Of a stretch of 46,275 bases of DNA, positions 22,383 through 46,275 are shown piece by piece. The stretch is from Nevskia sp. Its GTDB lineage: Bacteria; Pseudomonadota; Gammaproteobacteria; Nevskiales; Nevskiaceae. The number at the start of each line of letters is the position of its first letter. Position 1 is the first letter of the stretch. Made by a program: the position numbers and the translations under genes. The stretch is from contig JAUXYM010000062.1 in the NCBI GenBank assembly GCA_030694365.1, positions 1 through 46,275 on the forward strand, given 5' to 3'. The notes under the pieces were generated by a model. That model was given only the letters and a program-made list of their open reading frames with translations. It was not told where the DNA came from and did no database searches.

Positions 22383-23249
22383 ATGGCCACGCTGCCCAAT
22401 TTTCTCTACATCGGCACTGGTCGGGCCGGCTCGACCTGGCTGTTCGAAGCGCTGCGCCAGCATCCGGAAGTGTTCGTCACCCCGGTCAAGGAAACCAATT
22501 ACTTCGATCTCAACCACGGGCGCGGGCTGGACTGGTACAGCGGCTTCTTTGCCGATGCCGGCGGCTGCCGCGCGGTCGGCGAGATCGCCCACCGCTACTG
22601 GCGGCGGCCGGCACTGGCCGCGCAGGTGCGCGCCGAACTGGGGCCGGTCAAGTTGCTGGTCTGCTATCGCCGGCCGGAAGACTTCGTGCTGTCGGCCTAT
22701 CTGTTCGCGCGCCGCAATGGCCGCTTCAAGGGCTCGCCGGCCGACTGGATGGCCAGCCGCTTCGAAGCCGAGGCGCTGGCCTATCACGCGCTGCTCAACC
22801 CCTGGCTCGATGCCTTCGGCCGTGAGGCGATCTTGATCGCCTGCTTCGACGATCTGAAGGCCGATCCGGCGGCGTTTTACGCGGCCGTCTGCCGCTTTCT
22901 CGAGGTCAGCGAACAGCCGCTGCCGGCCGGGCTGCAGGGCCAGGTCAACGCCGCCGCGCGGCCGCGTTCGGCGGGCCTGGCGCTGGCCGTCAACTGGCTG
23001 TCCAAGCGCTTCAAGCGGCGTGGTGGCCAGCGGCTGATCGCCTGGGTCAAGCGCCAGTCGCTGGTCCAGCGCCTGCTCTACAGCCCGCTCGCTGCCGGCA
23101 CCAAGCCGGCGCTGAGCGACGAGGCGCGGGCAACAATCCGGGCGATCGCCGAGCCCGAACTGGCGCAGCTCGATGCCTACTTCGGCACCCGCTTCCGGCC
23201 CCGCTGGTATGGCGCAGCCGACAGCGTTCCAGCGGCGAGAGCGGCATGA
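22383..23249 (+). CDS. sulfotransferase family protein (first of three)
   Basis: A 288-residue PAPS-dependent sulfotransferase-fold protein. The 5'-phosphosulfate loop is GTGRAGSTWL (11-20), followed by the helix FEALRQHPEVFVTPVKETNYF. The 3'-phosphate site is the strand LLVCYRRPEDFVLSAY (about 92-107). It probably adds sulfate to sugar residues of the locus polysaccharide. It is more divergent than the two following copies, which share GAPKSGT. It starts 24 bases after the Wzc-like gene, and its stop overlaps the next start by four bases. No signal peptide is present, so it should act in the cytoplasm on lipid-linked intermediates. Confidence 0.88.
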   Translation: MATLPNFLYIGTGRAGSTWLFEALRQHPEVFVTPVKETNYFDLNHGRGLDWYSGFFADAGGCRAVGEIAHRYWRRPALAAQVRAELGPVKLLVCYRRPEDFVLSAYLFARRNGRFKGSPADWMASRFEAEALAYHALLNPWLDAFGREAILIACFDDLKADPAAFYAAVCRFLEVSEQPLPAGLQGQVNAAARPRSAGLALAVNWLSKRFKRRGGQRLIAWVKRQSLVQRLLYSPLAAGTKPALSDEARATIRAIAEPELAQLDAYFGTRFRPRWYGAADSVPAARAA

Positions 23250-30210: not shown

Positions 30211-30214
30211 GTAT

Positions 30215-30297
30215 CGTCATTCCCGCGCAGGCGGGAATCCAGTTTCGGCCGTAGCGCACCGCATCAGAACTGGATGCCCGCCTGCGCGGGCATGACG
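30215..30297. repeat. 83-bp dispersed inverted-repeat element, copy B
   Basis: It has the same length and arrangement as copy A at 2940-3022. CGTCATTCCCGC/GCGGGAAT and ATGCCCGC/GCGGGCATGACG hairpins flank a core with GCCGTAGCGCACCGCATCAG. The T/G-type arms are swapped relative to copy A (TTCCC on the left and GCCC on the right), so the two copies are inverted with respect to arm type. It lies between two convergent genes. Confidence 0.85.
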
Positions 30298-30307
30298 GCC
30301 TTCAGCT

Positions 30308-31504: not shown

Positions 31505-32018
31505 GTCCGCCCGAAGTCCCCAAATTGCCTTGTCGCCGCGCCGGAACCTTGCCGGTGTCTCAAGCGCGTCACGTCCCTGTGGTCCAACCTTCCGCTCCCG
31601 CTTTCCGGGCTCGCGGCCGAGCAGCGGCGGCGCCGACCCACCTGTAAAGATCACGTCAAAAATTTGATCTACGTCACGGTAGCGTCGTCATATGACGCGG
31701 CGATGGCGAATAGAAGACGGCAGCCCGATCAATACCTTCTGCTGACGCCGACTTCACGAATCTGCAACGTTGGTCGGCAACACTGCGTCGCTCAAAACTG
31801 GGATGCTCGGCGCTGGACGGTGCCGAAGTGGTCATTGCGCCTCGACGGAGTCGAGCGTTCGCCGGGGCGCGGATGCTGGCGGCGGCATGAAGCGCAGCGC
31901 GCTGCCGTGCCGGGACAGCCAGTTCTCCGCCTGTTTCCAGCCAATTCTTGGGCTGCCCGTTCAGCCTGGCTCGCTGGCACCCGTTTGCCGGCTTTCGTTT
32001 GTAAGGGGATTTCGTTCG
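31505..32018. other. 514-base gene-free region between divergent GT9 and tpsB
   Basis: No gene is seen; the open frames here lack family signal and natural starts. It must contain promoters for both directions. The most structured part is 31653-31697. Confidence 0.6.
31653..31697. promoter_or_regulatory. cluster of ACGTCA words and a CGTCATATGACG palindrome
   Basis: ACGTCA occurs at 31653-31658 and 31671-31676 (18 bases apart), followed by a perfect 12-bp palindrome CGTCATATGACG at 31686-31697. TTGATC at 31665 and TCATAT near 31688 have roughly sigma-70-like spacing. This could be an operator-promoter of the divergent GT9 gene or of the tps locus. Confidence 0.35.
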
Positions 32019-33668
32019 TTGAACCTGACGCTTTCAACCATGCTGAGGCTTTCAACCGTGCTGGGTTCGGCAACGCTGAGCGCGTGGGCGCTGCTGCCGT
32101 CGGCGGCCCGCGCCGCAGACGCGCCGTCGCCTCCTGTGCCATCCGTCACCGCACCAGTCAGCGCGCCGCCGGCGCTTGATATCTGGGAGTTCGCGGTCGA
32201 CGGCAACAGCGTGTTGAGCGCTGCCGAGATCATCAAGGCGCTGGAGCCGTTCCTCGGCCTTGATCGCACGCCGGACGATGTCGATCGCGCCCGCGCCGCG
32301 CTGGAACGCCATTACCGCGATCGCGGCTACAAGACGGTGTCGGTGGCGATTCCCAAGCAGACCGTGCGCGACGGCGTGGTGGTGCTGGAAGTCACCGAAA
32401 GCCGGGTCGGCCGGCTCAATGTCGTCGGCTCGGAATACCACTCGCTGGACCAGATCAAGGCTGAAGCGCCGGCGCTGGCCGAAGGCACGGTGCCGGATTT
32501 CAACAAGGTCAGCAGCGATATCGCGGCCCTCAATCAGCAGGCCGATCGCCGGGTCACGCCATCGCTGAAGGCCGGTGCCACGCCGAACACCGTCGATGTC
32601 GATCTGGTCGTCGATGACGATCTGCCGCTGCACGGCTCGCTGGAACTGAACAACCGCCGCAGCCAGGACACCAGCAATCTGCGCGCGGTCGCCAGCCTGT
32701 CCTACGACAACCTGTTCCAGCGCGGCCATTCGGTCAGCGCTTCGGTGCAGACCGCCCCGGAAAACACCGACGACGCCAAGGTCTTCTTCGGCTCCTACCT
32801 GGCGCGCTTCGGGGCCAGCCGGTTCAACCTGCTGGTCAACGGCCTGGTGTCGGATTCCAACATCGCCACGGTCGGCGGCATCAACGTGCTCGGCCGCGGC
32901 CAGACGCTCGGCGTGCGCGGCATCTGGACCTTGCCGGGTACCGAAGAGCTGTATCAGTCGCTATCGGTCGGCCTCGACTACAAGCACTTCAAGAACACCA
33001 CGGTGCTCGGCGGCAGCGAGATTCCGACGCCGATCACCTACTACCCGCTGAGCGCGGCGTACAGCTCGATCCTGCGCCAGAACGAATACCTCGCCCAGCT
33101 CGATCTGTCCTTGAGCTTCAACTCCGGCCAGTTCGGCAGCCGCAGCGACGAATTCGATGTCAATCGCTTCGGTGCCCGCGGCCAGCAGTTCTGGTTGCGT
33201 GGCAGCTTTGCCCAGACCTTCGGGCTGCCGCTGGCGCTGCAGGGCTACATCAAGCTCGGCGGCCAGTTGACCGACCAGCCGCTGATCTCCAACGAGCAGA
33301 TTTCCGCCGGCGGTGCCGACACCGTGCGCGGCTACCTCGAAGCCTCGGCGATCGGCGACTACGGCATCACCAGCACGATGGAACTGCGCAGCCCGCCGCT
33401 GGCCGGCTATCTCGATATCAGTGACAGCTTCCGGCCGGTGGAAACCTTGCGCGCCTACGCCTTCGCCGACAGCGCGGTGCTGCGCGTGCGCCGGCCGCTG
33501 CCGGACATGCCGGCCGATCTGCGCCTGGCCAGCTTCGGCTTCGGCTTCGATTTCAAGCTGCTGAGCCATCTCAGCGGCAGCCTCGACTGGGCCAATCCGA
33601 TCACCAGCAGGCCAACCACCCGCGCCGGCAACAGCCGCCTGCTGTTCCGGGTACTCGGTTCGTTCTGA
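32019..33668 (+). CDS. two-partner secretion outer membrane transporter (TpsB/FhaC/ShlB family)
   Basis: A 549-residue Omp85-superfamily transporter that should secrete the large exoprotein encoded at the end of the locus. A signal peptide (about residues 8-35, ending SAARA) is followed by POTRA regions (WEFAVDGNSVLSAAEI; YRDRGYKTVSVAIP) and a 16-strand barrel from about residue 200 (LHGSLELNNRRSQDTSNLRA onward). It has the conserved VRGY loop motif (DTVRGYLEAS) and ends in phenylalanine. The TTG at 32019 has AAGGGGA nine bases upstream. The ATG at 32040 would remove seven residues and is an alternative. The stop overlaps an ATG of the next frame. Confidence 0.92.
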   Translation: MNLTLSTMLRLSTVLGSATLSAWALLPSAARAADAPSPPVPSVTAPVSAPPALDIWEFAVDGNSVLSAAEIIKALEPFLGLDRTPDDVDRARAALERHYRDRGYKTVSVAIPKQTVRDGVVVLEVTESRVGRLNVVGSEYHSLDQIKAEAPALAEGTVPDFNKVSSDIAALNQQADRRVTPSLKAGATPNTVDVDLVVDDDLPLHGSLELNNRRSQDTSNLRAVASLSYDNLFQRGHSVSASVQTAPENTDDAKVFFGSYLARFGASRFNLLVNGLVSDSNIATVGGINVLGRGQTLGVRGIWTLPGTEELYQSLSVGLDYKHFKNTTVLGGSEIPTPITYYPLSAAYSSILRQNEYLAQLDLSLSFNSGQFGSRSDEFDVNRFGARGQQFWLRGSFAQTFGLPLALQGYIKLGGQLTDQPLISNEQISAGGADTVRGYLEASAIGDYGITSTMELRSPPLAGYLDISDSFRPVETLRAYAFADSAVLRVRRPLPDMPADLRLASFGFGFDFKLLSHLSGSLDWANPITSRPTTRAGNSRLLFRVLGSF

Positions 33669-33721
33669 TGCCCGCCCTCAACCCTCTTTTCATTTTCAGT
33701 CAGCGTCCATCCGGAAAACCC

Positions 33722-35566
33722 ATGAGCCTGCCGTCGATACTCCGCACCGCTACCGTCACCGCGTTGCTGTGCCTGCTGATGCCGCTCAGCGCGTCCGCCT
33801 GGTGGAACCAGGAATGGTCGTTCCGCAAGCCGATCACTGCCGATGCGGCGGCGGCCGGCGTCAGCGGTGAAGTCGGCGATACCGTGGTGCTGGTGCGTCT
33901 GCACGAAGGCGTCATGAAGTTCGGCGATGCCAATGCCGATGGCGGCGATCTGCGCTTCATCGCCGAGGACGATGCCACGCCGCTGAAGTTCCACGTCGAG
34001 AAGTTCGACCCGGTGTTCAACCTCGGCTTCGTCTGGGTCCATCTGCCGGCGGTGAAGGCCGGCGCACCGGTGAAGTTCTGGCTCTATTACGGCAACGCCA
34101 AGGCGGCGAAGGAAGGCGATACCAGCCTGAGCTACGACGACAGCCAGGCGCTGGTCTGGCATTTCTCGCCGGCTGAAGGCCAGGCTGGACAGCCGCCGAT
34201 CGACGCCAGCCGTTCGCGCAACAACGGCCTGAGCGCAGCGGTGATCACCGACAGCGGCCTGATCGGCGGCTCGGCCAAGTTCGACGGCGCGCGGGCCATC
34301 ACCGCAGCATCGTCGACGACGCTGAACGTCGCCGCCGGTGCCGCGCTGACCTGGTCGGCCTGGATCAACCCGGAGACCGCCGACCAGACCGCTGTGCTGT
34401 ACGCCCAGCGCGACGGCAGCAATGCGCTGGTCATCGGCCTCGATCGCGGCACGCCGTATGTCGAGATCAACGACGCCGCCGGCAGCCGCCGCTCGACGCC
34501 AGCCACCGCGATCGCCGCCGCGAGCTGGCATCACCTGGCCGTGGTGTTCGGCGGCACTGGTGCTCCCGGCGGTGCCCTCTACGTCGACGGCCAATCGGCC
34601 GCGACGATCTCCGGCCCGCTGCCGGCGCTGACCACCGCAATCAGCCTCGGCGCCAGCGCCGGACCGGGCACGGCCGATCCGGTCACCGCCGGCTACACCG
34701 GCGAGATCGACGAACTGCAGATTGCCCACAGCGCGCGCAGCCCCGGCTGGCTGCTGCTGGCGGCGAACAATCAGGGCATCGAAGACAAGCTGCTGCAGTT
34801 CGGTGCCGACGAAGGCCTGTCCGGTTTCTCGACTGGCTACATCGGCATCATCATGCAGTCGGTCACCGTCGATGCTTGGGTGATCATCGGCGTCCTGGCG
34901 CTGATCGCGCTGGCCTCGTACGCGGTGATGTATACCAAGGGCGGCTACTGCGGCCGTACCAATCGCGCCAACGAACTGTTCTCCCGGCAGTTCGAGACCC
35001 TGCGCAGCGATCTGACCAATCTGGAAAGCGTGCAGCCGCTGAGCGAGGACGACCGCGACCAGCTCGAGGATTCCTCGCTGTACCGGATGTACAAATCCGG
35101 GGTTCGCGAAATCCTTCACCGCTTCGAGATCGCGGGTCGTCCGGGCGCGCTGTCGGCGGAATCGATCGAGTCGATCCGCGCTTCGGTGGACGCCACTTCG
35201 GTGCGCGAGAACCAGCGCTTGTCGAAAGGCATGGTGGTGCTGACCATCGCCATTTCCGGCGGCCCCTTCATCGGCCTGCTCGGCACCGTGGTCGGCGTGA
35301 TGATCACCTTCGCCTCGATCGCCGCCGCCGGCGAAGTCAATGTCAACGCCATTGCGCCGGGCATTTCGGCAGCACTCCTGGCCACCGTCGCCGGCATGGC
35401 GGTGGCGATTCCGGCGCTGTTTGCCTACAACTTCCTGCTCGGCCGGATCAAGGACATCCAGGCCAACATGGCCGTTTTCGTCGACGAATTCGTCACCCGC
35501 ATGGCCGAGATGTATCCGGCCGGCAACGACGGTCACAACGTCCGCGCGGCCGTCGGCCACCGCTGA
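33722..35566 (+). CDS. ExbB/TolQ-type proton channel with periplasmic DUF2341-LamG domain
   Basis: A 614-residue fusion. The signal peptide is residues 1-26 (ending SASA). Residues 27-150 match DUF2341 (WWNQEWSFRKPI, FVWVHLPAVKAGAPVKFWLYYG). Residues 155-350 look like a LamG/concanavalin-like fold (AGAALTWSAWINPE, ASWHHLAVVFGG, ALYVDGQSAA, GEIDELQIAHSARS). Residues 380-600 are a MotA/TolQ/ExbB channel: helix 1 at about 384-405, helix 2 at about 503-530 (GGPFIGLLGTVVGVM) and helix 3 at about 548-575 (LLATVAGMAVAIPALFAYN). Ordinary ExbB is near 240 residues, so about 370 are extra and lie in the periplasm, where they could contact TpsB, the exoprotein or glycans. The ATG at 33722 begins the signal peptide; the ATG at 33668, overlapping tpsB, is an alternative. 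Confidence 0.9.
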   Translation: MSLPSILRTATVTALLCLLMPLSASAWWNQEWSFRKPITADAAAAGVSGEVGDTVVLVRLHEGVMKFGDANADGGDLRFIAEDDATPLKFHVEKFDPVFNLGFVWVHLPAVKAGAPVKFWLYYGNAKAAKEGDTSLSYDDSQALVWHFSPAEGQAGQPPIDASRSRNNGLSAAVITDSGLIGGSAKFDGARAITAASSTTLNVAAGAALTWSAWINPETADQTAVLYAQRDGSNALVIGLDRGTPYVEINDAAGSRRSTPATAIAAASWHHLAVVFGGTGAPGGALYVDGQSAATISGPLPALTTAISLGASAGPGTADPVTAGYTGEIDELQIAHSARSPGWLLLAANNQGIEDKLLQFGADEGLSGFSTGYIGIIMQSVTVDAWVIIGVLALIALASYAVMYTKGGYCGRTNRANELFSRQFETLRSDLTNLESVQPLSEDDRDQLEDSSLYRMYKSGVREILHRFEIAGRPGALSAESIESIRASVDATSVRENQRLSKGMVVLTIAISGGPFIGLLGTVVGVMITFASIAAAGEVNVNAIAPGISAALLATVAGMAVAIPALFAYNFLLGRIKDIQANMAVFVDEFVTRMAEMYPAGNDGHNVRAAVGHR

Positions 35567-35598
35567 TCCGCCCTTAAAACGTACGGCGGAGACCAGCC

Positions 35599-36003
35599 AT
35601 GCAAGCCTCGAGCGAAGACAAGCCTTACGACGAAATCAACATCACGCCGATGCTCGATCTCGCCTACGTGCTGCTGGTGATCTTCATCATCATGACCACG
35701 GCCGCCGTGCAGGGCATCAAGGTCAACCTGCCTCAGGCGTCCAGCCAGGCGTCGCTGGCGAAGTCGAAAACCGTGGCGATCACCATCACCAACGACGGCA
35801 AGATCTTCATGGACGCGGTGCCGGTGACCCTGGCCGAACTGGAAGACAAGCTGCGCCAGAAGAAGGCGCAGATTCCCGATCTGCCGGTGATCGTCCGCGG
35901 CGACGGCGAGACCCAGTACAAGAACGTCATCGACGTGCTGGCACTGCTCGGTCAGCTCGACATCACCCAGCTCGGTCTGGTCACCCAGCGGCTGGTGCAG
36001 TGA
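35599..36003 (+). CDS. exbD: ExbD/TolR family energy-coupling protein
   Basis: A 134-residue single-pass protein. NITPMLDLAYVLLVIFIIMT contains the transmembrane helix with the essential aspartate of the proton path. The periplasmic domain includes VAITITNDGKIFMD and LPVIVRGDGETQYKNVIDVL, as expected for ExbD. It works with the ExbB-type channel encoded 32 bases upstream and TonB encoded 7 bases downstream. GGAG precedes the start. The length is normal. Confidence 0.94.
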   Translation: MQASSEDKPYDEINITPMLDLAYVLLVIFIIMTTAAVQGIKVNLPQASSQASLAKSKTVAITITNDGKIFMDAVPVTLAELEDKLRQKKAQIPDLPVIVRGDGETQYKNVIDVLALLGQLDITQLGLVTQRLVQ

Positions 36004-36010
36004 TCCTGAC

Positions 36011-36697
36011 ATGACCCTGAGCAGACGCCAGCAGGCCCAGCGCAAGCGCAAGCAGCGGCTGACTATCGCCGCCGCGCTGGCCGCTGCCGTGCTGCTCTAC
36101 GGCCTGGTGACGATGCTCGGCGGTGATGGCAGCAAGGCGCGCAAGCCGGTCAATGAAGTGGTGCAGCTGAAGCTGATCAAGCCGCCACCACCGCCGCCGC
36201 CTCCCCCGCCGCCGAAACCGAAGATCGAGCCGCCGAAGCAGAACGTGCCGGAATTCAAGCCGGCAACACCAACGCCGGAGCCGCCCAAGGAAGCACCGCC
36301 GCCCGGCCCGCCGGCACTCGATGCCAAGGGCACTGGCGCCGGCGATGCCTTCGGCCTGCAGGGCAAGGAAGGCGGCGCCGATTACCGAGTCGGTGGCGGA
36401 GGCGAGGGAGGCGGCGGCACCGGCAACCGCCTCGGCTGGTACACGACCCTGCTGCAGCAACGCGCCCAGGGCGCCGTGCAGCGCCAGCGCCGGCTGCTGG
36501 AAGCGCGCTTCGCGATCACCGTGCAGATCTGGCTGGCCGCGGACGGCAGCACCGAACGAGTCGAACTGCTGCGCTCCACCGGCCGGCCGGAGCTGGACCG
36601 CCTGCTCAAAGACACCTTGAAGAACATGCCGAAGCTCAGCGAGCCGCCGCCGAAGGATCTGCCGCAGCCAGCCGTGATCCGGGTGACGACGACATGA
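36011..36697 (+). CDS. tonB: TonB family protein
   Basis: A 228-residue protein with a basic cytoplasmic start, one membrane helix (about 18-37), a proline-rich spacer with eleven consecutive prolines (about 58-68), then PKPKIEPPKQ. A glycine-rich stretch (GGGGEGGGGTGN) leads to a TonB C-terminal domain (ARFAITVQIWLAADGSTERVE, STGRPELDRLLKDTL). It should transmit energy from the ExbB-ExbD complex to an outer-membrane partner. No TonB-dependent receptor gene is visible in the window; candidate partners in the locus are TpsB and the large putative porin. Confidence 0.92.
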   Translation: MTLSRRQQAQRKRKQRLTIAAALAAAVLLYGLVTMLGGDGSKARKPVNEVVQLKLIKPPPPPPPPPPPKPKIEPPKQNVPEFKPATPTPEPPKEAPPPGPPALDAKGTGAGDAFGLQGKEGGADYRVGGGGEGGGGTGNRLGWYTTLLQQRAQGAVQRQRRLLEARFAITVQIWLAADGSTERVELLRSTGRPELDRLLKDTLKNMPKLSEPPPKDLPQPAVIRVTTT

Positions 36698-36728
36698 ACC
36701 CGCAGCATTCCCAACCTGTATCCCCGCC

Positions 36729-38528
36729 ATGAAGCCGATCCGGCCCCTGCTGCATACGACGTCCCGCCTGCCCGCTCCGAGGCCGGTCGCCGTCGCGATG
36801 AAAACCGCGATCGCGGCCTTGTTTGTGGCCGCTGCCGGCTACGCCAGCGCGGCCGATGAAACGCCAGCCGCCCAGGTCGCCGCCAAGCCTGCGGCGGCGG
36901 AGACGGTCACCGAAGAACTGATCCGCCTGCTGTCCGATCGCAATGCGCTGAGCAAGGACGATGCGGCGCGGCTGATCCGCCGACTGCAGACCGAGAAGCC
37001 GGTGCAGGCTGTCGAGACCGCTGCGCCGGCCGGCACCGCAGCGCCTGCAACGGCGACTGCCGCCGGTGAAACCAAGCCAGCCGATCCCAAAGACCCGAAG
37101 AACCGGGTCCGCGTGATCTATCTGCCGGACTCGGAAAAGCAGCGCATCCGCGAAGAGCTCAAGGACGAAGTGCTGGCCACCGCCCGCGCCGAGAACTGGG
37201 CGCAGCCATCGGCGCTGCCGGAGTGGATCAAGAACCTCAAGCTCGATGGCGATCTGCGCCTGCGCGAAGACTTGATCTTCCTCGACCAGGCCAACGACCC
37301 GTTCCAGATCAACTACCAGGCGATCAACAGCGGCAGCCCGTTCAATGTCAGTTCGAGCGCGGTCAACCAGCCGCTGCCGCCGCTGCTGAACACCACCGAA
37401 GACCGTCAGGCAACCCGCTTCCGTCTGCGCCTCGGCCTGCTCGCCAATGTCGCCGATGATCTGTCGGCCTCGGTGCGGCTGACCACCGGCAACAACGTCA
37501 ATCCGCTGTCGCCGAACCAGACCGTCGGCAATGCCTACAACAAGTTCACGTTGCTGATCGATCGCGCGTTCCTGAACTACCACCCGCTGACCGGCCTGAA
37601 CGTCTACGGCGGGCGCATTCCCAACCCCTGGCTGTCGACCAATCTGGTCTGGGACGAGAACCTCGGCTTCGATGGCCTGGCGACGCGCTACAGCCATGGC
37701 ATCGGCGAGAGCGTGACGGCTTACGGCACCTTCGGCGCCTTCGTGGTCGAGAACACCGCCTTCGATTTCCCGTCGACCAGCGCGGTCAAGGCCAACAGCC
37801 GCGATGCCTCGATGTTCGGCTTCCAGACCGGGGTCGACTGGAAGGTCGATGACGGCCTCACCGCCAAGGCCGCGGTGGCCTTCTACGACTACGAGAACCT
37901 CGACGGCGAACTGTCGTCGCCCTGCGTGGCACCGACCAATGCCTTCTCCTGCGATAGCGACGAAAGCCGGCCGACCTACCTGCAGAAGGGCAACTCGCTG
38001 TTCGCGCTGCGCAACCTGCAGCTGCAGACCTCCACCGATCCGCAGTTCCAGTATTTCGGCCTGGCATCGGAGTTTCGGATTCTCGACGTCAACGGCGAGC
38101 TGGACTACAAGATCGGCGGGCCACTGCACGCCACCTTCACCGGCGATGTCGCCTGGAACACCGCGTACAGCGCCCGCAAGGTTCGCGCGCTCAGCCCGGT
38201 CAACAACTTCGACTCCGGCGACAACTACAGCGGCGGCAATCTCGCCTATCTGGCGCGCTTCAAGGTCGGCTATCCGGACATCAACGAACGCAACCAGTGG
38301 AACGTTCTGGTCGGCTACCGGCGGCTGGAAACCGACTCGGTGGTCGATGCCTTCACCGATGCCGATTTCCATCTCGGCGGCACCAACTCCAAGGGCTATT
38401 ACGTCTTCGGCAACTGGGGCTTCTCGCACCACGCCTGGCTGACCCTGAAGTGGTTCAGCACCACCGAAGCGAGCGGCGCGCCCTACGCCGCCGATCTGCT
38501 GCAGCTCGATATCAATGCGCGCTTCTGA
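36729..38528 (+). CDS. putative outer membrane porin
   Basis: A 599-residue exported protein. The signal helix is MKTAIAALFVAAAGYASA, starting at the second ATG (36798). The chosen first ATG adds 23 residues; neither start has a clear ribosome site. Residues 45-150 form a charged, partly coiled linker (EELIRLLSDRNALSKDDAARL, DSEKQRIREELKDEVLATA). From about 170 the protein is a beta-barrel of the putative porin group (LDGDLRLREDLIFLD, RFRLRLGLLANVADDLSASV, YGGRIPNPWLST, LLQLDINARF), ending in phenylalanine. The linker could reach into the periplasm toward TonB or the coiled-coil protein encoded next. The substrate is unknown. Confidence 0.85.
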   Translation: MKPIRPLLHTTSRLPAPRPVAVAMKTAIAALFVAAAGYASAADETPAAQVAAKPAAAETVTEELIRLLSDRNALSKDDAARLIRRLQTEKPVQAVETAAPAGTAAPATATAAGETKPADPKDPKNRVRVIYLPDSEKQRIREELKDEVLATARAENWAQPSALPEWIKNLKLDGDLRLREDLIFLDQANDPFQINYQAINSGSPFNVSSSAVNQPLPPLLNTTEDRQATRFRLRLGLLANVADDLSASVRLTTGNNVNPLSPNQTVGNAYNKFTLLIDRAFLNYHPLTGLNVYGGRIPNPWLSTNLVWDENLGFDGLATRYSHGIGESVTAYGTFGAFVVENTAFDFPSTSAVKANSRDASMFGFQTGVDWKVDDGLTAKAAVAFYDYENLDGELSSPCVAPTNAFSCDSDESRPTYLQKGNSLFALRNLQLQTSTDPQFQYFGLASEFRILDVNGELDYKIGGPLHATFTGDVAWNTAYSARKVRALSPVNNFDSGDNYSGGNLAYLARFKVGYPDINERNQWNVLVGYRRLETDSVVDAFTDADFHLGGTNSKGYYVFGNWGFSHHAWLTLKWFSTTEASGAPYAADLLQLDINARF

Positions 38529-38538
38529 GGCCGGAACG

Positions 38539-39201
38539 ATGCGTTCAGCGATCCCCAAGCGCACTGGCTTGCGCTATGCCTTGGCCGTGCTGCTGCTGAG
38601 CGCAGCGCCGGCGGTGCTGGCCCAGGCGACCCTGGAATCGAAGCTGCGCGATCAGCTGCGTCAGACCACCTTGGCGCTGCGTGAAGCCCAGGCGCTGAAC
38701 GCCGAGCTGAAGCAGAAGGCCGACACCGCCACTGCCGAAGCGGCGGCGGCGAAAGCCGCACCGGCGCCGGTCGCAGCCGATCCCGAACTGACCGCCAGCC
38801 GCAGCGCGCTGCGCAGCGAACAGGCGCGCGCTGTTGCCTTGCAGAGCCAGCTCGACGAAGCGAAGAAACAACTCGCCGCTGTGCAGACACAGAGCGCCGC
38901 CAGCGCTGCGCTGATCAAGCAGCGCGAAGCCGAACTGCAGCAGCGCAGCGCCGAGCTGAAGGATGCCGCCAGCCGCAATGAACTGCTCGATAGCCGCAAT
39001 GCGGCACTGGTCGACATCGGCAGCGAACTGGTCGAGCGCTACCGGCGCAAGACCGTCTGGGACGCGATCCAGGATCGCGAGCCGCTGACCGGCCTGCACC
39101 GCGTGCAGTTCGAGACGCTGGTGCAGGACTACCGCAACCGCGTGCTCGATGCCGCCGCTTCCAACCCTTGTCCCGTTCCTGCTACTGCGCCTGCGCCATG
39201 A
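38539..39201 (+). CDS. exported coiled-coil protein of unknown function
   Basis: A 220-residue protein with a signal peptide (about 1-28, ending AVLAQ). A long alpha-helical coiled coil rich in Ala, Gln, Glu and Leu follows (about 30-165; LRDQLRQTTLALREAQAL, ARAVALQSQLDEAKKQLAAV). A conserved-looking C-terminal helix (LVERYRRKTVWDAIQDREPL, RVQFETLVQDYRNRVLDA) closes the protein. No enzyme motif is seen. It is presumably a periplasmic spacer or scaffold of the secretion locus. The ATG at 38539 has GAGG eight bases upstream and is preferred over the ATG at 38515. Its stop overlaps the next start (ATGA). Confidence 0.75.
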   Translation: MRSAIPKRTGLRYALAVLLLSAAPAVLAQATLESKLRDQLRQTTLALREAQALNAELKQKADTATAEAAAAKAAPAPVAADPELTASRSALRSEQARAVALQSQLDEAKKQLAAVQTQSAASAALIKQREAELQQRSAELKDAASRNELLDSRNAALVDIGSELVERYRRKTVWDAIQDREPLTGLHRVQFETLVQDYRNRVLDAAASNPCPVPATAPAP

Positions 39202-39710
39202 CCGATCTGATCCGTACCAGTGTTTCGCCCGAAGACCTTGCCGAAGTGCTGCGCAAGACCGGCTACCGCGCTGCCGTGGTCGAGCCACAAGTCGGCGGCC
39301 AGACCGGGCCGATCGGACCTCAAGTGCAGAGCGCTGCCCAGGGGCTGGGCTTCTTCATCGGCTTCGGCAATCCGCTGCCGGCCGTCGACGCAGCGCTCGG
39401 CGGCTCGCGTCACTACGTCGATTTCGCCTTCCACTGCTGGCTGAACATCGAAGGCGAACTGAGGCCCGATCTGGTCGACAGCTGGAACCGCAGCAAGCGC
39501 TTCGCGCGGCTGTTCCGTCAGGCACCGCTGCTGGTGCTGTCGATGGACGTGGTCGTCGCCGGCGGCGTCAGCGAGAGCTTTCTGATCGCCCATTGCGAAC
39601 TCTGGGATCGCGTACTGCAGGATTTCATCGCTCATCTGCGGCTGCCCGCTTCGAACACTGCTTCGAGCACCGCTTCGAGCGCTGGGGCAGCCACTGCAGC
39701 GACGGGTTGA
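39198..39710 (+). CDS. YbjN domain-containing protein
   Basis: A 170-residue cytoplasmic protein whose core resembles the YbjN family. A first half ends in FAFHCWLNIEG, then DSWNRSKRFARLF carries the family WNxxKRFA signature, followed by LLVLSMDVVVAGGVSESFL and the helix ELWDRVLQDFIAHL. YbjN-like folds are related to type III secretion chaperones, so a role in holding the exoprotein before export is conceivable but unproven. The tail (TASSTASSAGAATAAT) is low complexity. It overlaps the coiled-coil gene by four bases and ends 68 bases before tpsA. Confidence 0.75.
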   Translation: MTDLIRTSVSPEDLAEVLRKTGYRAAVVEPQVGGQTGPIGPQVQSAAQGLGFFIGFGNPLPAVDAALGGSRHYVDFAFHCWLNIEGELRPDLVDSWNRSKRFARLFRQAPLLVLSMDVVVAGGVSESFLIAHCELWDRVLQDFIAHLRLPASNTASSTASSAGAATAATG

Positions 39711-39719
39711 ACCCGGAAC

Positions 39720-39740
39720 CGTTGCCGTGTCACGGCAACG
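39720..39740. promoter_or_regulatory. perfect 21-bp palindrome upstream of tpsA
   Basis: Ten-base arms CGTTGCCGTG and CACGGCAACG surround a single central T. It begins ten bases after the YbjN stop and ends 38 bases before the tpsA start. The one-base centre argues for a protein-binding operator over an RNA terminator, and there is no U-run downstream. Confidence 0.5.
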
Positions 39741-39778
39741 TCAAATGAATGTCGTGTTGACCGTCTAACAATACAAAA

Positions 39779-42700
39779 GTGAAAAATCGTCTGAAGCCCG
39801 CTACCCCCTTGGCCGTGCAGCGCCTGTCGACACGCGGCTGGCTGCAGCGTTGCGCCTGGGCCAGCGGCATGGGCTTCAGTCTGGTTGCCGGCTCGGCGAC
39901 GGCAGCACCGTTCGGCAGCGCCCAGTATTTCCAGAGTCGCGGCGTCAGTGCCGCCAATCCCGGTGCGCCGCTGCCCAGCGCGCCGCTCGACCCGGCTACC
40001 GGCAGCACCGTGGTGCTGCCGCAGCAGGCCTTGATCCGCGCCAACCGCTCGATCGCCAACCTGAGCCGCGCCGCCGAAGCGCTGGCCAGCGCCCAGGCAG
40101 CGCAGAGCGCGGCACGGCAACTGGCGCTGATCGCGCCGAGCGAGGTGCCCAATGGCCTGGCACCCGGCGGCCTGCAGGTTGCGGCGTCGGCGCTCAACCA
40201 GTTATCGACCTGCGCGGCAACCAATACCTGCGCCTGGCAGAACGCCAATCTGCCGGTGCAGAGCAGCGTCGGCGCGCAGACCACGGTCACCGTCCAGCAG
40301 ACCGCGAAGAAAGCCATCCTGAGCTGGGATTCGTTCAACATCGGCCGTGAAACGACGCTGAATTTCGATCAGCGCGCCGGCACCCAGGCCGATGGCAGCA
40401 ATGATTGGGTGGCCCTCAATCGGGTCGGCGCCAATGCCTCGCCGAGCCGCATCCTCGGCCAGATCAAGGCCGATGGCTCGGTCTATCTGATCAACCCGAA
40501 CGGTGTCATCTTCGGCGGCAGCGCCCTGGTCAACGTCCATTCGCTGCTGGTGTCGAGCCTGCCGCTGTACCTGACCACCGCACAGACCACGCTGCGACCG
40601 GGCGACGATGCGGTCTATCTGGCCGAATCGAATCGCCGGTTCCTGGAAACCGGCCTGACCGCCAGCGGCACCGGCAGTGCCGGTGGCAACATCCTGGGCC
40701 TGAACTCAGGCTCAGCGGCACTGCAGCTGAGCGCGGCCAACAGCTTGCCCGGCGATATCAGCATCGAGGCCGGTGCCAGCATTGCCACCGATGCCCTCGG
40801 CTATACGCTGATCGCGGCGCCGAACGTCAGCAACGCCGGCAGCATTTCCGCCGTCGAGGGGCAGGTGATCCTGGCCGGTGGTGTCGGCGTGGCGCTGCGC
40901 AGTGCCGACAACGGCACCCTGCTGTTGAGTCCGTTGCTGACCGGTCGAGTGGTAGACGCCGACAACGTCGACATCCGCGGCAAAGTGACCAACAGCGGCC
41001 TGGTGCAATCGCGGCGGGGTGATATCACCGTGCTGGCACGCAACATCGACCAGCAGGGCGTGCTGGTATCGACCACCAGCGTCACCCGCGCCGGCTCTTT
41101 AAGCCTCAACGCGCTCGATCAGCAGGACCTTGCCGATGCCGGCATCCAGCGCACCGGCACCCTGCGCTTGGCGGGCACCTCGGTGACGGCGCTGCTACCC
41201 GATACCAACGGCGAAACGACCACCTCCAGTGCGGCAGCCGATCGGGTCTTCCCGATCGGCACCGCCAGCCTGCGTGGCGGTGCGATCACGCTGGATCGTG
41301 GCGCGCTGATCGAAGCGCCCGGCCAGAACGTCCGGCTGGCGGCGCTGGTCGGTGCCCTGGAAGATGGTTCGGTATCCGGCCGCATCTATCTCGAAGACGG
41401 CTCGACGATCGACGTCTCCGGCCTCGCCGACGTGCAACTGGCGATCGCCAGCAACCTGGTCAGCATCAATCGCCTCGGCCTCAACGAACTGGCCGACTCG
41501 CCGCTGCAGCGTCTCGGCGTGCTGTTCGGCGCGCCGATCACCGTCGACAGCCGGGTCACTGGCACTCGGGACGATGGCAGCAGCTATATCGGCACGCCGG
41601 TCGCCAATGTCGGCGGCTTCGTCGACGCCCGGCCACGTGGTATTTCGGAACTGCTGCAGAACGGCGGCACCTTGACCCTGGCCGGCGCCGAAGTAGTCAC
41701 CCGAGCCGGCTCGTCGCAGAACCTCGACGGCGGCTACCTGCACTACCTCGGCGGCATCATCGAGACCACCCGCCTGCTGGCTGCCAACGGCGCGGTGATC
41801 GACATCGCCGACGCCGATCCGGACCTCGAATACCTCGGCATCGCCGGCCGCTTCGACGACCAGCATCCGCGCTGGAGCGTCACCAACACCTATACCAACC
41901 CGCTGATCGCCGGCACCGGTGCGCGCTACGAGAGCGACTATCTCAAAGGCGGCAACGCCGGCACCTTGAACGTCTTCGCCAGCGTTGCTGCGGTGCTCGA
42001 CGGCGACCTCTCGGCCCAGGCCTACGCCGGCCGTCGCCAGGTCGCCAATGCCAAGATGCCGAGCGGCGGCCACTTCAGCGCCGGTGCCGGGGCCGGCAAT
42101 GCCCTGCTGCCCGACAGCCCCACCTCCGGACGCAGCTACGTCATCACCGATACGCTGCCGGACCTCGACACCCTGCTGCCCGGCTTCGATGCCGGCACGG
42201 CGCTGCCAGTCTCGCCGTCCGCCGCCAGCGACACCGGCAACCTGCAGAACTGGATCGCGATTCCCGCCGCCGAGCTTGCGGCAGCCGGTTTCGGTAGCGT
42301 CAACATTGCCGCCGATACACCTGCGGGTCAGGGGTTCGGCGGCGAGATCGTTGTCGCCGATGCGCTGCGTGTGCAGCCCGGCGGCAGCATCAGCCTGACC
42401 GGTTCGCGGGTCACCGTGCTCGCCGACCTGACCGCGACCGCCGGCAGCATCAGCGTTACCGCGACCGGCAATACCGATATCGCCGGCAGCAGCCTGCGGC
42501 TGGTTGCAGGACCACTGTTGGCCGGCATCAATGGTGATGTCGTGATCGGCGACGGCGTCACCCTGTCGACCCGCGGCCAGTGGATCAACGACGCGCTGAA
42601 AGACGAGGACGGCATCAACGGCAGCAGCTTCGTCAACGGCGGCAGCATCAGCCTTGGCAGCTTGCAGTCCTCGCTAAAACAAGACTCTGGCAGTGTCGCC

Positions 42701-45700
42701 TGCCCGGATACCACCTGCTTCGTCGACAACACCGGCTCGATCCTGCTCGGTGCCAGCAGCCTGCTCGATGTTTCCAGCGGCGGCCGGGTGCTGCCTTCGG
42801 GCGCGCTGGCCAAGAGCAAGGGCGTCGTCCAGGGCCGCAGCGGCAGCATCGCACTGGAAACCTACCGGCTATCCGGCAACGAGCAGTTCGGCACCACCAA
42901 CGGGCTGGAGCTGCCGACCACGGCAGCGCTGCCAAGCGCAGGCCGCATCGTCTTCGGCGGCGAACTGCTGGCCTACGGCTTCTCCGGCGGCGGTACGCTG
43001 AGCCTGCGAGCGCTCGGCTTTCATATCGGCGACTCTTCGCAGACCCCGGCCAATGCCTGGGATACCGTGTTGCCGGCTGATTTCTTCACCGGCCAGGGCT
43101 TCGGCAGCTACCAGCTGTTCGCCGAGTACGACGCGACGATCACCGCCGGCTCGGTGCTCCGGCCGCAGCAGTTCAATTTCATTCCCAACGAAGCGGCGCT
43201 GCTGGCGGCGCAGACCGGCATCGATCTCTACGATCCGGCCTACACCCGGATCGGCGCGCTCGACGACTTCCATCGCCAGGCGACCAGCTTCGAGCTCTAC
43301 ACCGGCGATTACCTGAACTGGCGCGGACTGGTCGCCGGCGTCGGTGCCCTGCCCGACTACTCGGCAGCCGGCATCACCGGCACCGTGCTGCTCGACCGCG
43401 ATGCCGCGATCCTCGCCGATACGCGCGCCACCGTGACCCTGGGCTCGAACCGCCAGGTCACCGTGCTCGGCAGCATCGTTGCCCACGGCGGCGCGATCAC
43501 CCTGACCGCCGATACCGCGCGCGGCGGCTACGCCCAGGTGCCGGGCCGCATCGATTCGCCGTACATCGACGGCAGCAAATCGGTGTTCCTCGGCACCGAC
43601 AGCCTGCTCGACGCCGCCGGCACCGTGCTGCTCGATCCGTTCGAGCTGGCGATCGAAGGGCCTGAAGGCCGGTTGACGACCCCGCGTACCGGCCAGGTGC
43701 TGGCCGGCGGCACGGTGACCCTGAGCAACGACACCGGCTACGTGATCGCCCTCGGCTGTGCCGATGGCGAAGGCTGCGGGCCAGGCGGCGTCGCCGGTGC
43801 GCGCATCGACGTGTCCGGCACCGCCGCCGTGCTCGATCTGCGCGCCGATGCCAGCGGCACCGGTTATCTCGCGACCACCGTCGCCAGCGATGCCGGCAGC
43901 ATCCGTCTCGGTGCCGGTGCCGGCCTGTTCTTCAACGGCAATCTGCTGGCACAACCGGGCAGCAGCACCGCGCGCGGCGGCAGCCTGAATGTGGCAACGC
44001 TGCTTCCGACCACCCCGGTCACCGTTCTGACCACCGCCGGCCAAGGCTATACCGGCGCCACGCGGCTGGTGCTGCGCCAAAAACCGATCGCGCTGCCGGC
44101 CGGTGCGCTGACGCCGGGCATGACCGTCGAAGCCGATCTGCCAGCACCGTCCGGCGTGCTCTATTTCGCCGCCGACCGCCTCGACGGCTCCGGCATCGAC
44201 TCGCTGCTGCTCGGCGTTGACCCGACGCTGAACAATGTCAGCACGCCGCGCAGCATCGTCTTCGGCAACGATCTGACTTTGAATCTGGGCCGCTCGATCA
44301 TCGCCAACGCCTCGAACTTCGTCGGCCAGTCCGGCGGCGATGGGCAGTCTTCGGTGAGCTTGAACGCACCCTATGTCGCGCTGCACGGCTATGTCAGTTC
44401 CGGCGACTACGGCAACACGCCATCGCTGCCGACACCGGCGCCGGGCGTCCAGCTGACCATCAACGCCACCAACATCGACCTCGGCGGCCAGTTCAACCTG
44501 CGCAATTTTGGCGCGGCGCGCTTCAACGCCAGCGGCGACATCCGCCTGCTGACGCCGGCGCAATTCGATTTCTATCGCAACGTCACCGCCAACCCCGGTG
44601 CTGCGACCTCGGTGCCGGGTGCGCTATTCACCTCCGGCGACCTGAGCTTCCAGGCCGCGCAGCTTTATCCGGCGACCGGCAACCGCTTCATCATCAGCGC
44701 CGTCAGTCCGGAAGGCTTCACCCCCGACGGGATATCGACCGGCCGCGCCGACACCACGATCCGCTTCCTCGGCAACGACGCTTCCGCGACGGTCGCCGCG
44801 CCGTTGTCGGCCGGCGGCAGCCTGCTGGTCAATGCCACGGTCATCGACCAGGCCGGCAGCTTGCGTGCCCCCGGCGGCCTGATCCAGCTCGGCGTTGCCG
44901 ATCCGCTCGACCCGGCCGCGCAGGCGCTGTTCGGCTTCCCGGCCAACAATAGCAACCCCAACAGCCCCACCCAGATCGTTGCCCGGGTGCCCCTGGTGGC
45001 GACCCGGTCGGTACGGCTCGGCACCGGCAGCATGACTTCGGTATCGCTGGAGGGCCTGATCGTGCCCTACGGCCGCACTGTCGATGGCCTGAACTACAGC
45101 TACAACGGTGCCGCCAACACCTTCTTCGCCGATCAGCTGGTCGCACCGCTGCTGTCGGCACCGCCGGAAAAACGGCTGGCGATCAGCGCCGCAGCGGTGA
45201 CGCTGGAAGCGGGTGCCACAGTCAATCTGGCCGGTGGCGGCGATCTGCAGGCGGCGGAGTTCGTTGCCGGTACCGGCGGCTCGCGCGACGTGCTGTCGCG
45301 GTTCAACACCAGCTTCGCCAGCGGTGCCGCCGTGCAGGTGCCGCTGTATGCCGATGGCCGGGCGATCTACGCGATCATCCCCGGCTATACAGGTGTAGCC
45401 GCCTACGATCCGGCGCTGGTCGCCGGCAATCCGCTGATCGGCCAGCAAGTTTATCTAAGCGGTATCGACGGCCTCGCCGCCGGCGTCTACACCCTGCTGC
45501 CGGGCCAGTACGCGGCCGTGCCCGGAGCTTTCCGGGTGGTCCAGGACAGCCGCGCGCTCGACGTGCAGGCCAGCCAGAACGCCCGTCTGGCCGATGGCAC
45601 CCTGCTGGTCGCCGGCCGCTTTGTCGACCAATACAGCGGCGCCCAGGACAGCCGCAACACGGCGTTCTTCGTGCAGAGCGAGGACAGCTGGCGGCAGTAC

Positions 45701-46204
45701 TCCGAATACAGCTTCACCAGCGCCAACCAGTTCTTCACCGACGACGCCAAGCGCGACGGCCGGGCAACGCCGCGACGGCCGGTCGATGCCGGCCAGCTAG
45801 TGCTGGCGGCGACCCAGACCCTGAGCCTCGGCGCGACCCTGAGCACCGCTGCCGGCATCGGCGCCGATGGCCTCAGCGGTGCCGGCGGACTGGTCGACAT
45901 CGCTTCGCAGCGGCTGCAGGTCAGCGCCGCTGGTGGCGTCGCGCTCGATGGCTATGTGCAACTGATCGCCGGCGATCTGAGCGCGCTCGGCGCATCGAGC
46001 CTGCTGATCGGCGGCAGCCGCAGCCGCACCGACGAGGGCGACCGCATCGCCGTGCTGGCCGACAGCGTCATCATCGACAACGGTGCCGAAGCGCTCAGCG
46101 CGCCGGAGATTGTCGTCGTCGCCAGCGCCGCCAACACGGATACCAGCATCGCCAGCGGCATCGTCGTCGCCGACGGCGCGAGCTTGCGCGTGGAGCCGGC
46201 TTAA
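39779..46204 (+). CDS. filamentous haemagglutinin-type TpsA exoprotein
   Basis: A 2141-residue secreted protein. The extended signal peptide (residues 1-43, ending ATAA) is typical of TpsA. The haemagglutination-activity (TPS) domain spans about 145-330, with SWDSFNIGRETTLNF (182-196) and YLINPNGVIFGGSALV (236-251). The NPNG motif is the hallmark needed for recognition by the transporter. The rest is beta-helix repeats rich in Gly, Asn, Ser and Thr (GGTLTLAGAEVVTR, GAGAGLFFNGNLLAQPG). No protease, toxin, RGD or C-terminal release domain was recognised. The start is GTG without a clear ribosome site, though downstream of a palindrome. It ends 71 bases from the window edge, and relatives are often longer, so C-terminal truncation is possible. 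Confidence 0.92.
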   Translation: MKNRLKPATPLAVQRLSTRGWLQRCAWASGMGFSLVAGSATAAPFGSAQYFQSRGVSAANPGAPLPSAPLDPATGSTVVLPQQALIRANRSIANLSRAAEALASAQAAQSAARQLALIAPSEVPNGLAPGGLQVAASALNQLSTCAATNTCAWQNANLPVQSSVGAQTTVTVQQTAKKAILSWDSFNIGRETTLNFDQRAGTQADGSNDWVALNRVGANASPSRILGQIKADGSVYLINPNGVIFGGSALVNVHSLLVSSLPLYLTTAQTTLRPGDDAVYLAESNRRFLETGLTASGTGSAGGNILGLNSGSAALQLSAANSLPGDISIEAGASIATDALGYTLIAAPNVSNAGSISAVEGQVILAGGVGVALRSADNGTLLLSPLLTGRVVDADNVDIRGKVTNSGLVQSRRGDITVLARNIDQQGVLVSTTSVTRAGSLSLNALDQQDLADAGIQRTGTLRLAGTSVTALLPDTNGETTTSSAAADRVFPIGTASLRGGAITLDRGALIEAPGQNVRLAALVGALEDGSVSGRIYLEDGSTIDVSGLADVQLAIASNLVSINRLGLNELADSPLQRLGVLFGAPITVDSRVTGTRDDGSSYIGTPVANVGGFVDARPRGISELLQNGGTLTLAGAEVVTRAGSSQNLDGGYLHYLGGIIETTRLLAANGAVIDIADADPDLEYLGIAGRFDDQHPRWSVTNTYTNPLIAGTGARYESDYLKGGNAGTLNVFASVAAVLDGDLSAQAYAGRRQVANAKMPSGGHFSAGAGAGNALLPDSPTSGRSYVITDTLPDLDTLLPGFDAGTALPVSPSAASDTGNLQNWIAIPAAELAAAGFGSVNIAADTPAGQGFGGEIVVADALRVQPGGSISLTGSRVTVLADLTATAGSISVTATGNTDIAGSSLRLVAGPLLAGINGDVVIGDGVTLSTRGQWINDALKDEDGINGSSFVNGGSISLGSLQSSLKQDSGSVACPDTTCFVDNTGSILLGASSLLDVSSGGRVLPSGALAKSKGVVQGRSGSIALETYRLSGNEQFGTTNGLELPTTAALPSAGRIVFGGELLAYGFSGGGTLSLRALGFHIGDSSQTPANAWDTVLPADFFTGQGFGSYQLFAEYDATITAGSVLRPQQFNFIPNEAALLAAQTGIDLYDPAYTRIGALDDFHRQATSFELYTGDYLNWRGLVAGVGALPDYSAAGITGTVLLDRDAAILADTRATVTLGSNRQVTVLGSIVAHGGAITLTADTARGGYAQVPGRIDSPYIDGSKSVFLGTDSLLDAAGTVLLDPFELAIEGPEGRLTTPRTGQVLAGGTVTLSNDTGYVIALGCADGEGCGPGGVAGARIDVSGTAAVLDLRADASGTGYLATTVASDAGSIRLGAGAGLFFNGNLLAQPGSSTARGGSLNVATLLPTTPVTVLTTAGQGYTGATRLVLRQKPIALPAGALTPGMTVEADLPAPSGVLYFAADRLDGSGIDSLLLGVDPTLNNVSTPRSIVFGNDLTLNLGRSIIANASNFVGQSGGDGQSSVSLNAPYVALHGYVSSGDYGNTPSLPTPAPGVQLTINATNIDLGGQFNLRNFGAARFNASGDIRLLTPAQFDFYRNVTANPGAATSVPGALFTSGDLSFQAAQLYPATGNRFIISAVSPEGFTPDGISTGRADTTIRFLGNDASATVAAPLSAGGSLLVNATVIDQAGSLRAPGGLIQLGVADPLDPAAQALFGFPANNSNPNSPTQIVARVPLVATRSVRLGTGSMTSVSLEGLIVPYGRTVDGLNYSYNGAANTFFADQLVAPLLSAPPEKRLAISAAAVTLEAGATVNLAGGGDLQAAEFVAGTGGSRDVLSRFNTSFASGAAVQVPLYADGRAIYAIIPGYTGVAAYDPALVAGNPLIGQQVYLSGIDGLAAGVYTLLPGQYAAVPGAFRVVQDSRALDVQASQNARLADGTLLVAGRFVDQYSGAQDSRNTAFFVQSEDSWRQYSEYSFTSANQFFTDDAKRDGRATPRRPVDAGQLVLAATQTLSLGATLSTAAGIGADGLSGAGGLVDIASQRLQVSAAGGVALDGYVQLIAGDLSALGASSLLIGGSRSRTDEGDRIAVLADSVIIDNGAEALSAPEIVVVASAANTDTSIASGIVVADGASLRVEPA

Positions 46205-46275
46205 CGTTCGAGCCGGACTATTTTGCTTTGTTAGCTTTGCTCCATTTGTCCGCGAAGCGATGAAGCGGCATGAAC

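Follow-up and report, generated by a model that had tools for sequence, protein, structure and literature searches.

Why would a two-partner secretion (TPS) locus carry its own proton-powered motor? The driving force of type V export is an open question, for which the usual statement is that nothing external supplies it, and export by the type Vb class is said to use no external energy source (PMC5422565; the papers cited here by PMC number were available in part). The window analysed here is a 46,275-nucleotide (nt) stretch of Nevskia sp. DNA that makes up one entire contig of a metagenome-assembled genome (MAG) with 124 contigs and 89% completeness. It holds a TPS locus in which the transporter gene tpsB and the exoprotein gene tpsA are accompanied by exbB, exbD, tonB and porin genes. 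When compared across genomes, this module is a variant of TPS with a dedicated Ton motor. The reading put forward here is that the Ton-coupled module is conserved and that the most likely handle of its motor would be the C-terminal tail of the exoprotein, which we regard as plausible, if slightly short of an even chance.

The locus in the window

The genes and domains of the locus are as follows (aa, amino acids).

32019-33668, + strand: tpsB, outer-membrane transporter, 549 aa, TTG start at 32019, POTRA_2 and ShlB barrel (PF08479 1e-13, PF03865 4.7e-19)
33668-35566, + strand: exbB-like gene, 632 aa, signal peptide, ectodomain and MotA/TolQ/ExbB domain (MotA_ExbB 5.5e-28)
about 33938-34129, + strand: DUF2341, periplasmic, in the exbB-like gene (Pfam 2.4e-12)
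34319-34744, + strand: Laminin_G_3/ConA-like domain in the exbB-like gene (Laminin_G_3 1.4e-17)
35093-35470, + strand: MotA/TolQ/ExbB domain in the exbB-like gene (Pfam)
35599-36003, + strand: exbD (ExbD2 subfamily), 134 aa (Pfam ExbD 1.8e-31)
36011-36697, + strand: tonB (TonB4-like), membrane anchor, Pro-rich spacer and C-terminal TonB_2 at 36437-36679 (TonB_2 3.5e-6)
36729-38528, + strand: Porin_5 outer-membrane porin (Pfam 1.8e-169)
37107-37130, + strand: porin strand motif VRVIYLPD, consensus VRVpYVPE (alignment), in a porin with a conserved N-terminal helix and Ala/Pro linker
38515-39201, + strand: secreted coiled-coil protein, 228 aa, in the position of PA0697, a usual member of the set (no Pfam family)
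39168-39710, + strand: YbjN-like protein in the position of PA0698, accessory (Pfam 21.9 bits against a cut-off of 22)
39779-46204, + strand: tpsA, large exoprotein, incomplete, TPS domain at 40271-40561 (PF05860 2.4e-19)
46190-46275, no strand: contig end unrelated to the congener exoprotein, an assembly end or a real break (comparison; no second copy in the MAG)

A sequence-only reading of this DNA had described eight genes running in one direction with short gaps or overlaps, and they are present as claimed: all lie on the + strand between 32019 and 46204, where neighbours overlap slightly or are at most 68 nt apart. Pfam matches above cut-off cover six of the eight proteins (TpsB, ExbB, ExbD, TonB, Porin_5 and TpsA), and the YbjN assignment is marginal. 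The ExbB-like identity given to the second gene holds for its ExbB domain, but the DUF2341 and Laminin_G_3 domains of the same protein had been overlooked. The AlphaFold2 model of this protein has a mean predicted local distance difference test (pLDDT) score of 91, and in the PDB its membrane part is best matched by TolQ/ExbB and its ectodomain by ConA-like folds. One paper, available in part, mentions DUF2341 on stator-like A subunits. In ExbD, Asp20 of the membrane helix is invariant across nine aligned members. The module ExbB alignment has the consensus PGIAAAL, at a site where E. coli ExbB/TolQ have PGIAEAL, and two membrane-helix threonines are invariant in the aligned sequences. In the window TpsB, about 20 Pro/Ala-rich residues separate the signal peptide from the first POTRA domain, and a crude helix screen showed no H1-type plug helix.

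The same reading had stated that no TonB-dependent receptor is present. By Pfam this is true of the locus proteins, none of which is a plug-barrel receptor, but the genome has 10 elsewhere. The 2141-residue exoprotein does derive from a tpsA with a TPS domain, but the gene is cut and the contig ends at 46275. Similarity to the exoprotein of congener G002 ends at about 46189, and the final ~85 bases are unrelated to it; a second copy of these bases, sought in the MAG as a possible repeat, was not found, and neither was the missing C-terminal part of the exoprotein on the other contigs of this 89%-complete MAG. The exoproteins of congeners continue into a C-terminal DUF3739 domain (5/5 scanned). 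The window tpsA is incomplete, with the congeners' DUF3739 region and tail absent.

Conservation of the module

The gene association as such is already known. In P. aeruginosa the order is pdtB-exbB2-exbD2-tonB4-PA0696 (putative porin)-PA0697-PA0698 (YbjN), and the Ton part of this operon has been termed 'still uncharacterized' (PMC7035377). A single promoter, PphdA, transcribes phdA, pdtB, exbB2D2, tonB4 and PA0696-PA0701 (PMC4971064). Llamas et al. (2009) found TPS, exbBD and PA0696 homologues grouped in six further genomes, and R. palustris and Janthinobacterium have repeated PUMA3 clusters, with tpsA following in three of four cases (PMC2729926). The association of pdtA/pdtB with exbB2/exbD2 that the sequence-only reading had mentioned is borne out by this published operon order.

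To survey the extent of the linkage, genome contigs were scanned for the ExbD subfamily, and the scan listed at least 80 loci. With eight congener regions and the window, the 80 listed loci give 89, or 84 distinct loci after removal of five duplicates (L049, L050, L051, L052, L056), and among these the module is found in Alpha-, Beta- and Gammaproteobacteria and in Verrucomicrobiota. All 84 have exbD and tonB, 82 the ExbB domain, 80 the LamG region, 78 Porin_5 and 73 the coiled coil; profile searches find tpsB in 38, a tpsA N-terminus in 27 and ybjN in 19. All core parts are present in 67/84 loci. Among the 17 incomplete ones, 11 are short contigs or have a contig end near the missing gene, the coiled coil is absent from L061 and L048 although the sequence continues, and a Porin_5 match is absent from L062, L068, L089 and L111 although the sequence continues past tonB. 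In three of these last (L062, L068, L089) the coiled-coil gene follows tonB directly, with no intervening Porin_5 match.

The position of the TPS genes relative to the motor genes varies. tpsB lies immediately before exbB in 38/84 loci, and an exoprotein C-terminus lies just upstream of exbB in 31 of the remaining 46, with one extra gene in between in six of the 31 (L074, L098, L099, L109, L113, L121). All 25 genomes searched from the 46 loci without an adjacent tpsB contain TpsB. For 17 of them, selected for longer flanks because the position of the tpsB match (11-17 kb upstream of exbD on the same strand) predicted the layout, the order tpsB, tpsA, lamG-exbB, exbD, tonB, porin was read directly in 17/17 extended stretches, with a tpsA of 3359-3920 aa, one being broken at 1661. 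The other eight do not show that layout (L063, L068, L071, L089, L095, L099, L113, L126), and three of these (L095, L099, L113) have an exoprotein end upstream nonetheless. With L118, one of the 17, where the upstream tpsA is the broken one, and with L058 and L081, where tpsA lies downstream, a TPS gene belongs to the locus in 72/84 cases (38 + 31 + 1 + 2). The conserved linkage of TPS with ExbB/ExbD/TonB that had been suspected is thus what the survey finds, rather than independent occurrence. A provisional result that half of the loci have the module without TPS came from 10-kb flanks (tpsB in 38/84) and was discarded, as longer flanks revealed tpsB beyond the giant tpsA. In six of the other loci the contig ends too early to judge (L062, L065, L091, L104, L114, L125), in five no TPS gene was found within 6-10 kb per side (L063, L071, L089, L111, L126), and L068 has a TPS-domain frame on the opposite strand only, near 10 kb.

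Two side observations concern these loci. A PpiC-type peptidyl-prolyl isomerase gene (PA0699-like) lies 3' of the coiled-coil gene in 19 loci (e.g. L107:7644-8738), 18 of which have tpsB beside exbB; the window is not among them. In the Verrucomicrobiota records (L066, L076, L105, L108) ExbD is 68-71% identical, which suggests inter-phylum transfer or misbinned contigs.

Co-occurrence with DUF3739 exoproteins

Co-occurrence was examined in 299 evenly drawn Pseudomonadota genomes. DUF3739 is found in eight of them and the ExbD subfamily (at least 148 bits) in nine, the next match scoring 112.7 bits. Full-length Porin_5 (at least 392 bits) is found in the same nine genomes, and three others have partial or weak matches only. 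The nine module genomes, which span nine genera and seven families, are the eight DUF3739 genomes plus the genome of the window, whose exoprotein is cut. DUF3739 and ExbD are encoded no more than about 40 kb apart on one contig in G084, G159, G320, G265 and, twice, in G220, and on different contigs in G195, G333 and G349.

TpsB, in turn, is far more common than the module: it is found in 127/299 genomes, of which eight carry the module and 119 do not. The remaining module genome, G349, has no TpsB match, and its exbD match starts at base 920 of the contig. Ordinary TPS, or TpsB as such, thus does not need the module. The energy module that had been tied to TPS is indeed widely linked to it, but not as a requirement of TpsB itself.

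These counts bear on the earlier proposal that TonB4 acts on the POTRA domains of TpsB to gate or drive export, which we consider quite improbable. tpsB is part of the operon, and a plug-helix-like segment was seen in 2/52 module TpsBs against 20/38 other TpsBs in a crude screen, so that gating may differ. Conversely, helix loss is not exclusive to module TpsBs, no conserved strand motif lies ahead of POTRA1, exoprotein genes stand apart from the motor genes in some genomes, and 119 of the 127 TpsB-bearing genomes manage without the module. Absence of the plug helix was also tried as a hallmark of the module and ruled out, as other TpsBs lack the helix too.

The co-occurrence also bears on the possibility that the motor does not take part directly in TPS and instead forms a co-regulated envelope or exopolysaccharide device of the Tol/Ton kind, inherited together with TPS as both shape the surface. 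Such a device would suit the lectin-like domain of ExbB, the polysaccharide genes beside many loci and beside the window locus, and the higher scores of ExbB and ExbD against TolQ/TolR models than against ExbB/ExbD models, all of them below cut-offs; the five loci without a TPS gene within 6-10 kb per side, and L068 with its opposite-strand frame, would fit it as well. However, nine of the 12 tested genomes without a same-strand TPS gene at the locus or with an early contig end encode a DUF3739 exoprotein at another place (the exceptions are the genomes of L071, L062 and L091), the eight-of-nine phylogenetic match is with DUF3739 exoproteins, and polysaccharide genes are a variable neighbour. 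We regard a motor without a direct part in TPS as unlikely.

The C-terminal tail of the exoprotein

Exoprotein C-termini were compared. Fifty were collected and one duplicate was removed (n=49). The motif [LI][TS]V[ED]V[LI]G[FL]G (e.g. LTVEVLGFG) is the one on which 41/49 C-termini align. Information content is 1.9-3.8 bits per column in the motif and 0.3-1.7 bits in the Ala/Ser-rich linker (-30 to -5), although a pattern-anchored alignment inflates the motif columns. The strict pattern is matched by 34/49 C-termini and by 18/23 clusters at 60% identity.

The C-termini of unrelated TPS systems are often toxin domains; hence other open frames served as background, namely 2110 other stop-to-stop frames of at least 300 aa from the retrieved loci, a set that also contains overlapping and non-coding frames. 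The strict motif occurs in five of them (L077, L100, L101, L123, L127), and these look like further exoprotein ends, judging from their tail type and their position at locus edges. A relaxed motif is found in 36/49 C-termini and in 2 of 2105 other frames, which are one sequence seen twice. Nine DUF3739 exoproteins stood outside motif discovery and come from genomes in whose module locus no neighbouring exoprotein is seen or the sequence ends too soon; three of the nine match the strict motif and eight the relaxed one, the latter counted by eye with a pattern written afterwards. An iterated DUF3739 profile drifted into beta-helix repeats and was excluded from the counts.

The tail is predicted to be disordered: in the one tail modelled with AlphaFold2 (L116, a single C-terminus with 28 alignment rows), pLDDT block means are 32-47 over the last 66 residues, motif included. 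A fold search with the DUF3739 end gave no PDB match with E below 1. To judge from its sequence, the tail strand may resemble a TonB box. In the SusC-type transporter Bt1763 the TonB box is VDEVVV (PMC7782687), likewise a short, hydrophobic strand close to the flexible end of a chain, but here the strand sits at the C-terminus of a secreted protein and its role as a TonB partner is putative.

VreA-like proteins and tpsA cassettes

A second line of evidence comes from the regulatory genes near the module. In P. aeruginosa, VreA combines an STN domain with a TolA/TonB-type domain (PMC2729926), and the inducing signal of its pathway has been described as unknown (PMC4971064). ECF sigma and FecR-like genes, of which one representative per type was scanned, lie near 18 loci, several of which also encode a secreted VreA-like protein. 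In the five VreA-like proteins scanned, STN was found in all (three below cut-off) and TonB_2 in two (one below cut-off). A hidden Markov model (HMM) of the TonB4 C-terminal domain (CTD), built from 83 motor-operon TonBs only, with VreA excluded, matches eight STN-bearing proteins at 1e-13 to 1e-19, against 2.8e-6 at best for frames beside ordinary ExbB genes. VreA-like proteins and TonB4 are thus shown, at the sequence level, to share similar C-terminal domains. E-values from an iterated profile, in which the iteration could itself recruit VreA, were rejected as proof of this sharing and replaced by the VreA-free HMM.

The same domain also accompanies exoprotein genes. In G265, tpsA1 and tpsA2 each follow directly on a CTD protein-ECF-FecR cassette, the motor operon being located upstream on that contig, and G349 has two tpsA genes with the same cassette on contigs other than that of exbD. 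In total four tpsA genes have their own cassette, and one of the CTD proteins does not show a simple STN pattern. The stretches read in G349 have the TonB-type domain beside tpsA but contain neither tpsB nor exbBD nor a porin, an arrangement that suggests the exoprotein as the shared ligand. G265 seems to use a single motor operon for several giant exoproteins.

Other observations touch the same genes. Contig C105 of G265 (L250-L252) has two tandem tpsA genes with their own cassettes, a third exoprotein lies on C124, and all three share the tail motif. Small, probably secreted proteins that consist only of a TonB4-like CTD occur near tpsA or the motor operon (L250:899-1483, L250:15232-15828, L077:15385-15951, L124:312-929, L084:16093-16605). 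No CTD/ECF/FecR cassette lies beside tpsB-tpsA in G084.

The porin is the next candidate. TonB4 could act on Porin_5 as an energised outer-membrane channel that serves TPS indirectly, through a ligand, an ion or a released fragment, with VRVpYVPE as its TonB box, a proposal we consider possible but on balance unlikely. Porin_5 is found in 78/84 loci, located after tonB. Its N-terminal region (profile 1-153) is matched in full-length module porins and not in the three distant homologues of module-less genomes, and an Ala/Pro linker precedes the strand motif. Moreover, G333 has its tpsB, porin and coiled-coil genes grouped next to tpsA, with exbD on another contig. However, Pfam finds no plug domain of a TonB-dependent receptor in the locus proteins, and VRVpYVPE could merely mark the start of the barrel base. 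Four loci (L062, L068, L089, L111) have no Porin_5 match though the sequence continues after tonB (the rest of those genomes was not searched for a porin), and the genomes of L068, L089 and L111 retain a DUF3739 exoprotein. In G349, VreA-like TonB-type domains accompany tpsA genes without a porin in the stretch read.

Thus, among the possible targets of TonB4, the exoprotein tail is best supported, the porin comes next and TpsB is least supported. We infer that the target of TonB4, and perhaps of VreA, is the exoprotein tail and not TpsB.

A possible mechanism

If the tail is the handle of the motor, the module could work as follows. TPS exoproteins are exported N-terminus first. TpsB would export the giant exoprotein, from which DUF3739 and the tail would emerge last and could remain periplasmic. 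The motor of lamG-ExbB, ExbD and TonB4, fed by the proton motive force, would span the periplasm, and TonB4 would pair with the tail strand, which follows the DUF3739 end domain and a flexible linker, and then pull, by analogy with TonB on the plug of TonB-dependent receptors. Such a pull would hold the exoprotein at the surface or remodel it; it could also unfold the end domain and so allow release, or draw the exoprotein back. In PUMA3-type genomes, VreA would read the same tail via its related TonB-type domain and then pass the signal to the regulators of the tps genes, the FecR-like anti-sigma factors and ECF sigma factors. The LamG domains of ExbB could act as sensors, either of polysaccharide or of the exoprotein. 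The binding of the tail by TonB4 and VreA, its periplasmic location, and the use of energy and its purpose are all conjectural steps. The more specific version, in which the adhesin-like exoprotein of ~3400-5000 residues is itself a TonB-dependent substrate, pulling by the proton motive force controls anchoring, DUF3739 unfolding and release from TpsB, and VreA tunes expression, is put forward tentatively, at about one chance in three.

Several points weigh against the tail as the handle. TonB pulls inward, and a benefit for export is not obvious. The window's own exoprotein is without the tail. Among the 49 C-termini, 15 miss the strict and 13 the relaxed motif, though several of these still have a strand of alternating hydrophobic residues. 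A likeness to a TonB box is inherently weak, as any exposed strand can pair with TonB, and the porin has a conserved N-terminal strand motif of its own. No CTD/ECF/FecR match was found in the 4.8 kb upstream of the orphan tpsA of G195. Published data also count here. TPS translocation has been reconstituted in vitro without external energy (PMC5422565). In zebrafish, VreI-induced virulence persisted in an insertion mutant of PA0695 (tonB4) and likewise in tpsA and tpsB mutants (PMC2729926), and expression of the regulon in low phosphate was unaltered by vreA deletion (PMC4971064).

If the tail-pulling mechanism holds, the module would represent a mechanically energised class of TPS. A widespread subclass with a private proton-powered motor and a cargo with a docking-like motif would open the question of the driving force to direct deletion and binding tests. 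It would also make the exoprotein tail a candidate ligand for VreA and suggest a use for the lectin-like domains fused to ExbB. The literature search found no paper on DUF3739, and none in the open literature proposing a mechanism for the module (the main PdtA paper lay outside that search); the available part of one biofilm proteomics paper has nothing on the module. As far as these searches show, the tail motif, the VreA domain link, the LamG-ExbB and the co-occurrence have not been described together.

Comparison with known systems

The closest known system is the pdt operon (PUMA3) of P. aeruginosa. The window has the same order tpsB-exbB-exbD-tonB-porin-PA0697-YbjN, the coiled coil being equated with PA0697 by position only. 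In P. aeruginosa, however, pdtA-phdA precede pdtB, whereas the window has tpsA directly downstream, and no ECF/FecR cassette corresponding to the vreA-vreI-vreR neighbourhood of the pdt operon was found within 9 kb of exbD in the window.

With type Vb systems such as FHA/FhaC, the window shares the TPS domain on TpsA and the POTRA domains and ShlB-type barrel on TpsB. It and its relatives differ by the private ExbB-ExbD-TonB-porin genes, and the relatives also by a DUF3739 end with a TonB-box-like tail. Module TpsBs are mostly without an H1-like plug helix, an absence not exclusive to the module; the H1 plug helix of FhaC is common in TpsB and not strictly defining.

All three subunits of a Ton system, ExbB, ExbD and TonB, are present in the window, but ExbB differs by its DUF2341 and laminin-G ectodomain and the locus has no plug-barrel receptor. 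There is also a likeness to Tol-Pal. The best NCBIfam scores of the window ExbB and ExbD are for TolQ (128.7, cut-off 221) and TolR (95.7, cut-off 127.3), and TolQ is among the best PDB matches of the ExbB-like model. The third partner is nonetheless of the TonB_2 type, with no TolA, TolB or Pal family among the Pfam matches of the locus.

Neighbouring genes in the window

Directly upstream of the locus lies an exopolysaccharide cluster (18693-31654) with Poly_export/SLBB, a Wzc-like kinase, a Wzy-like ligase, glycosyltransferases and a beta-helix protein. It includes three consecutive sulfotransferase genes, and this gene content points to a sulfated surface polymer. Poly_export-type genes also flank many other module loci. 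Farther upstream, the genes at 3641-5032 and 5072-5893 match no Pfam family, and a single open frame at 90-1994 matches fatty-acid hydroxylase and creatininase domains, an unusual combination.

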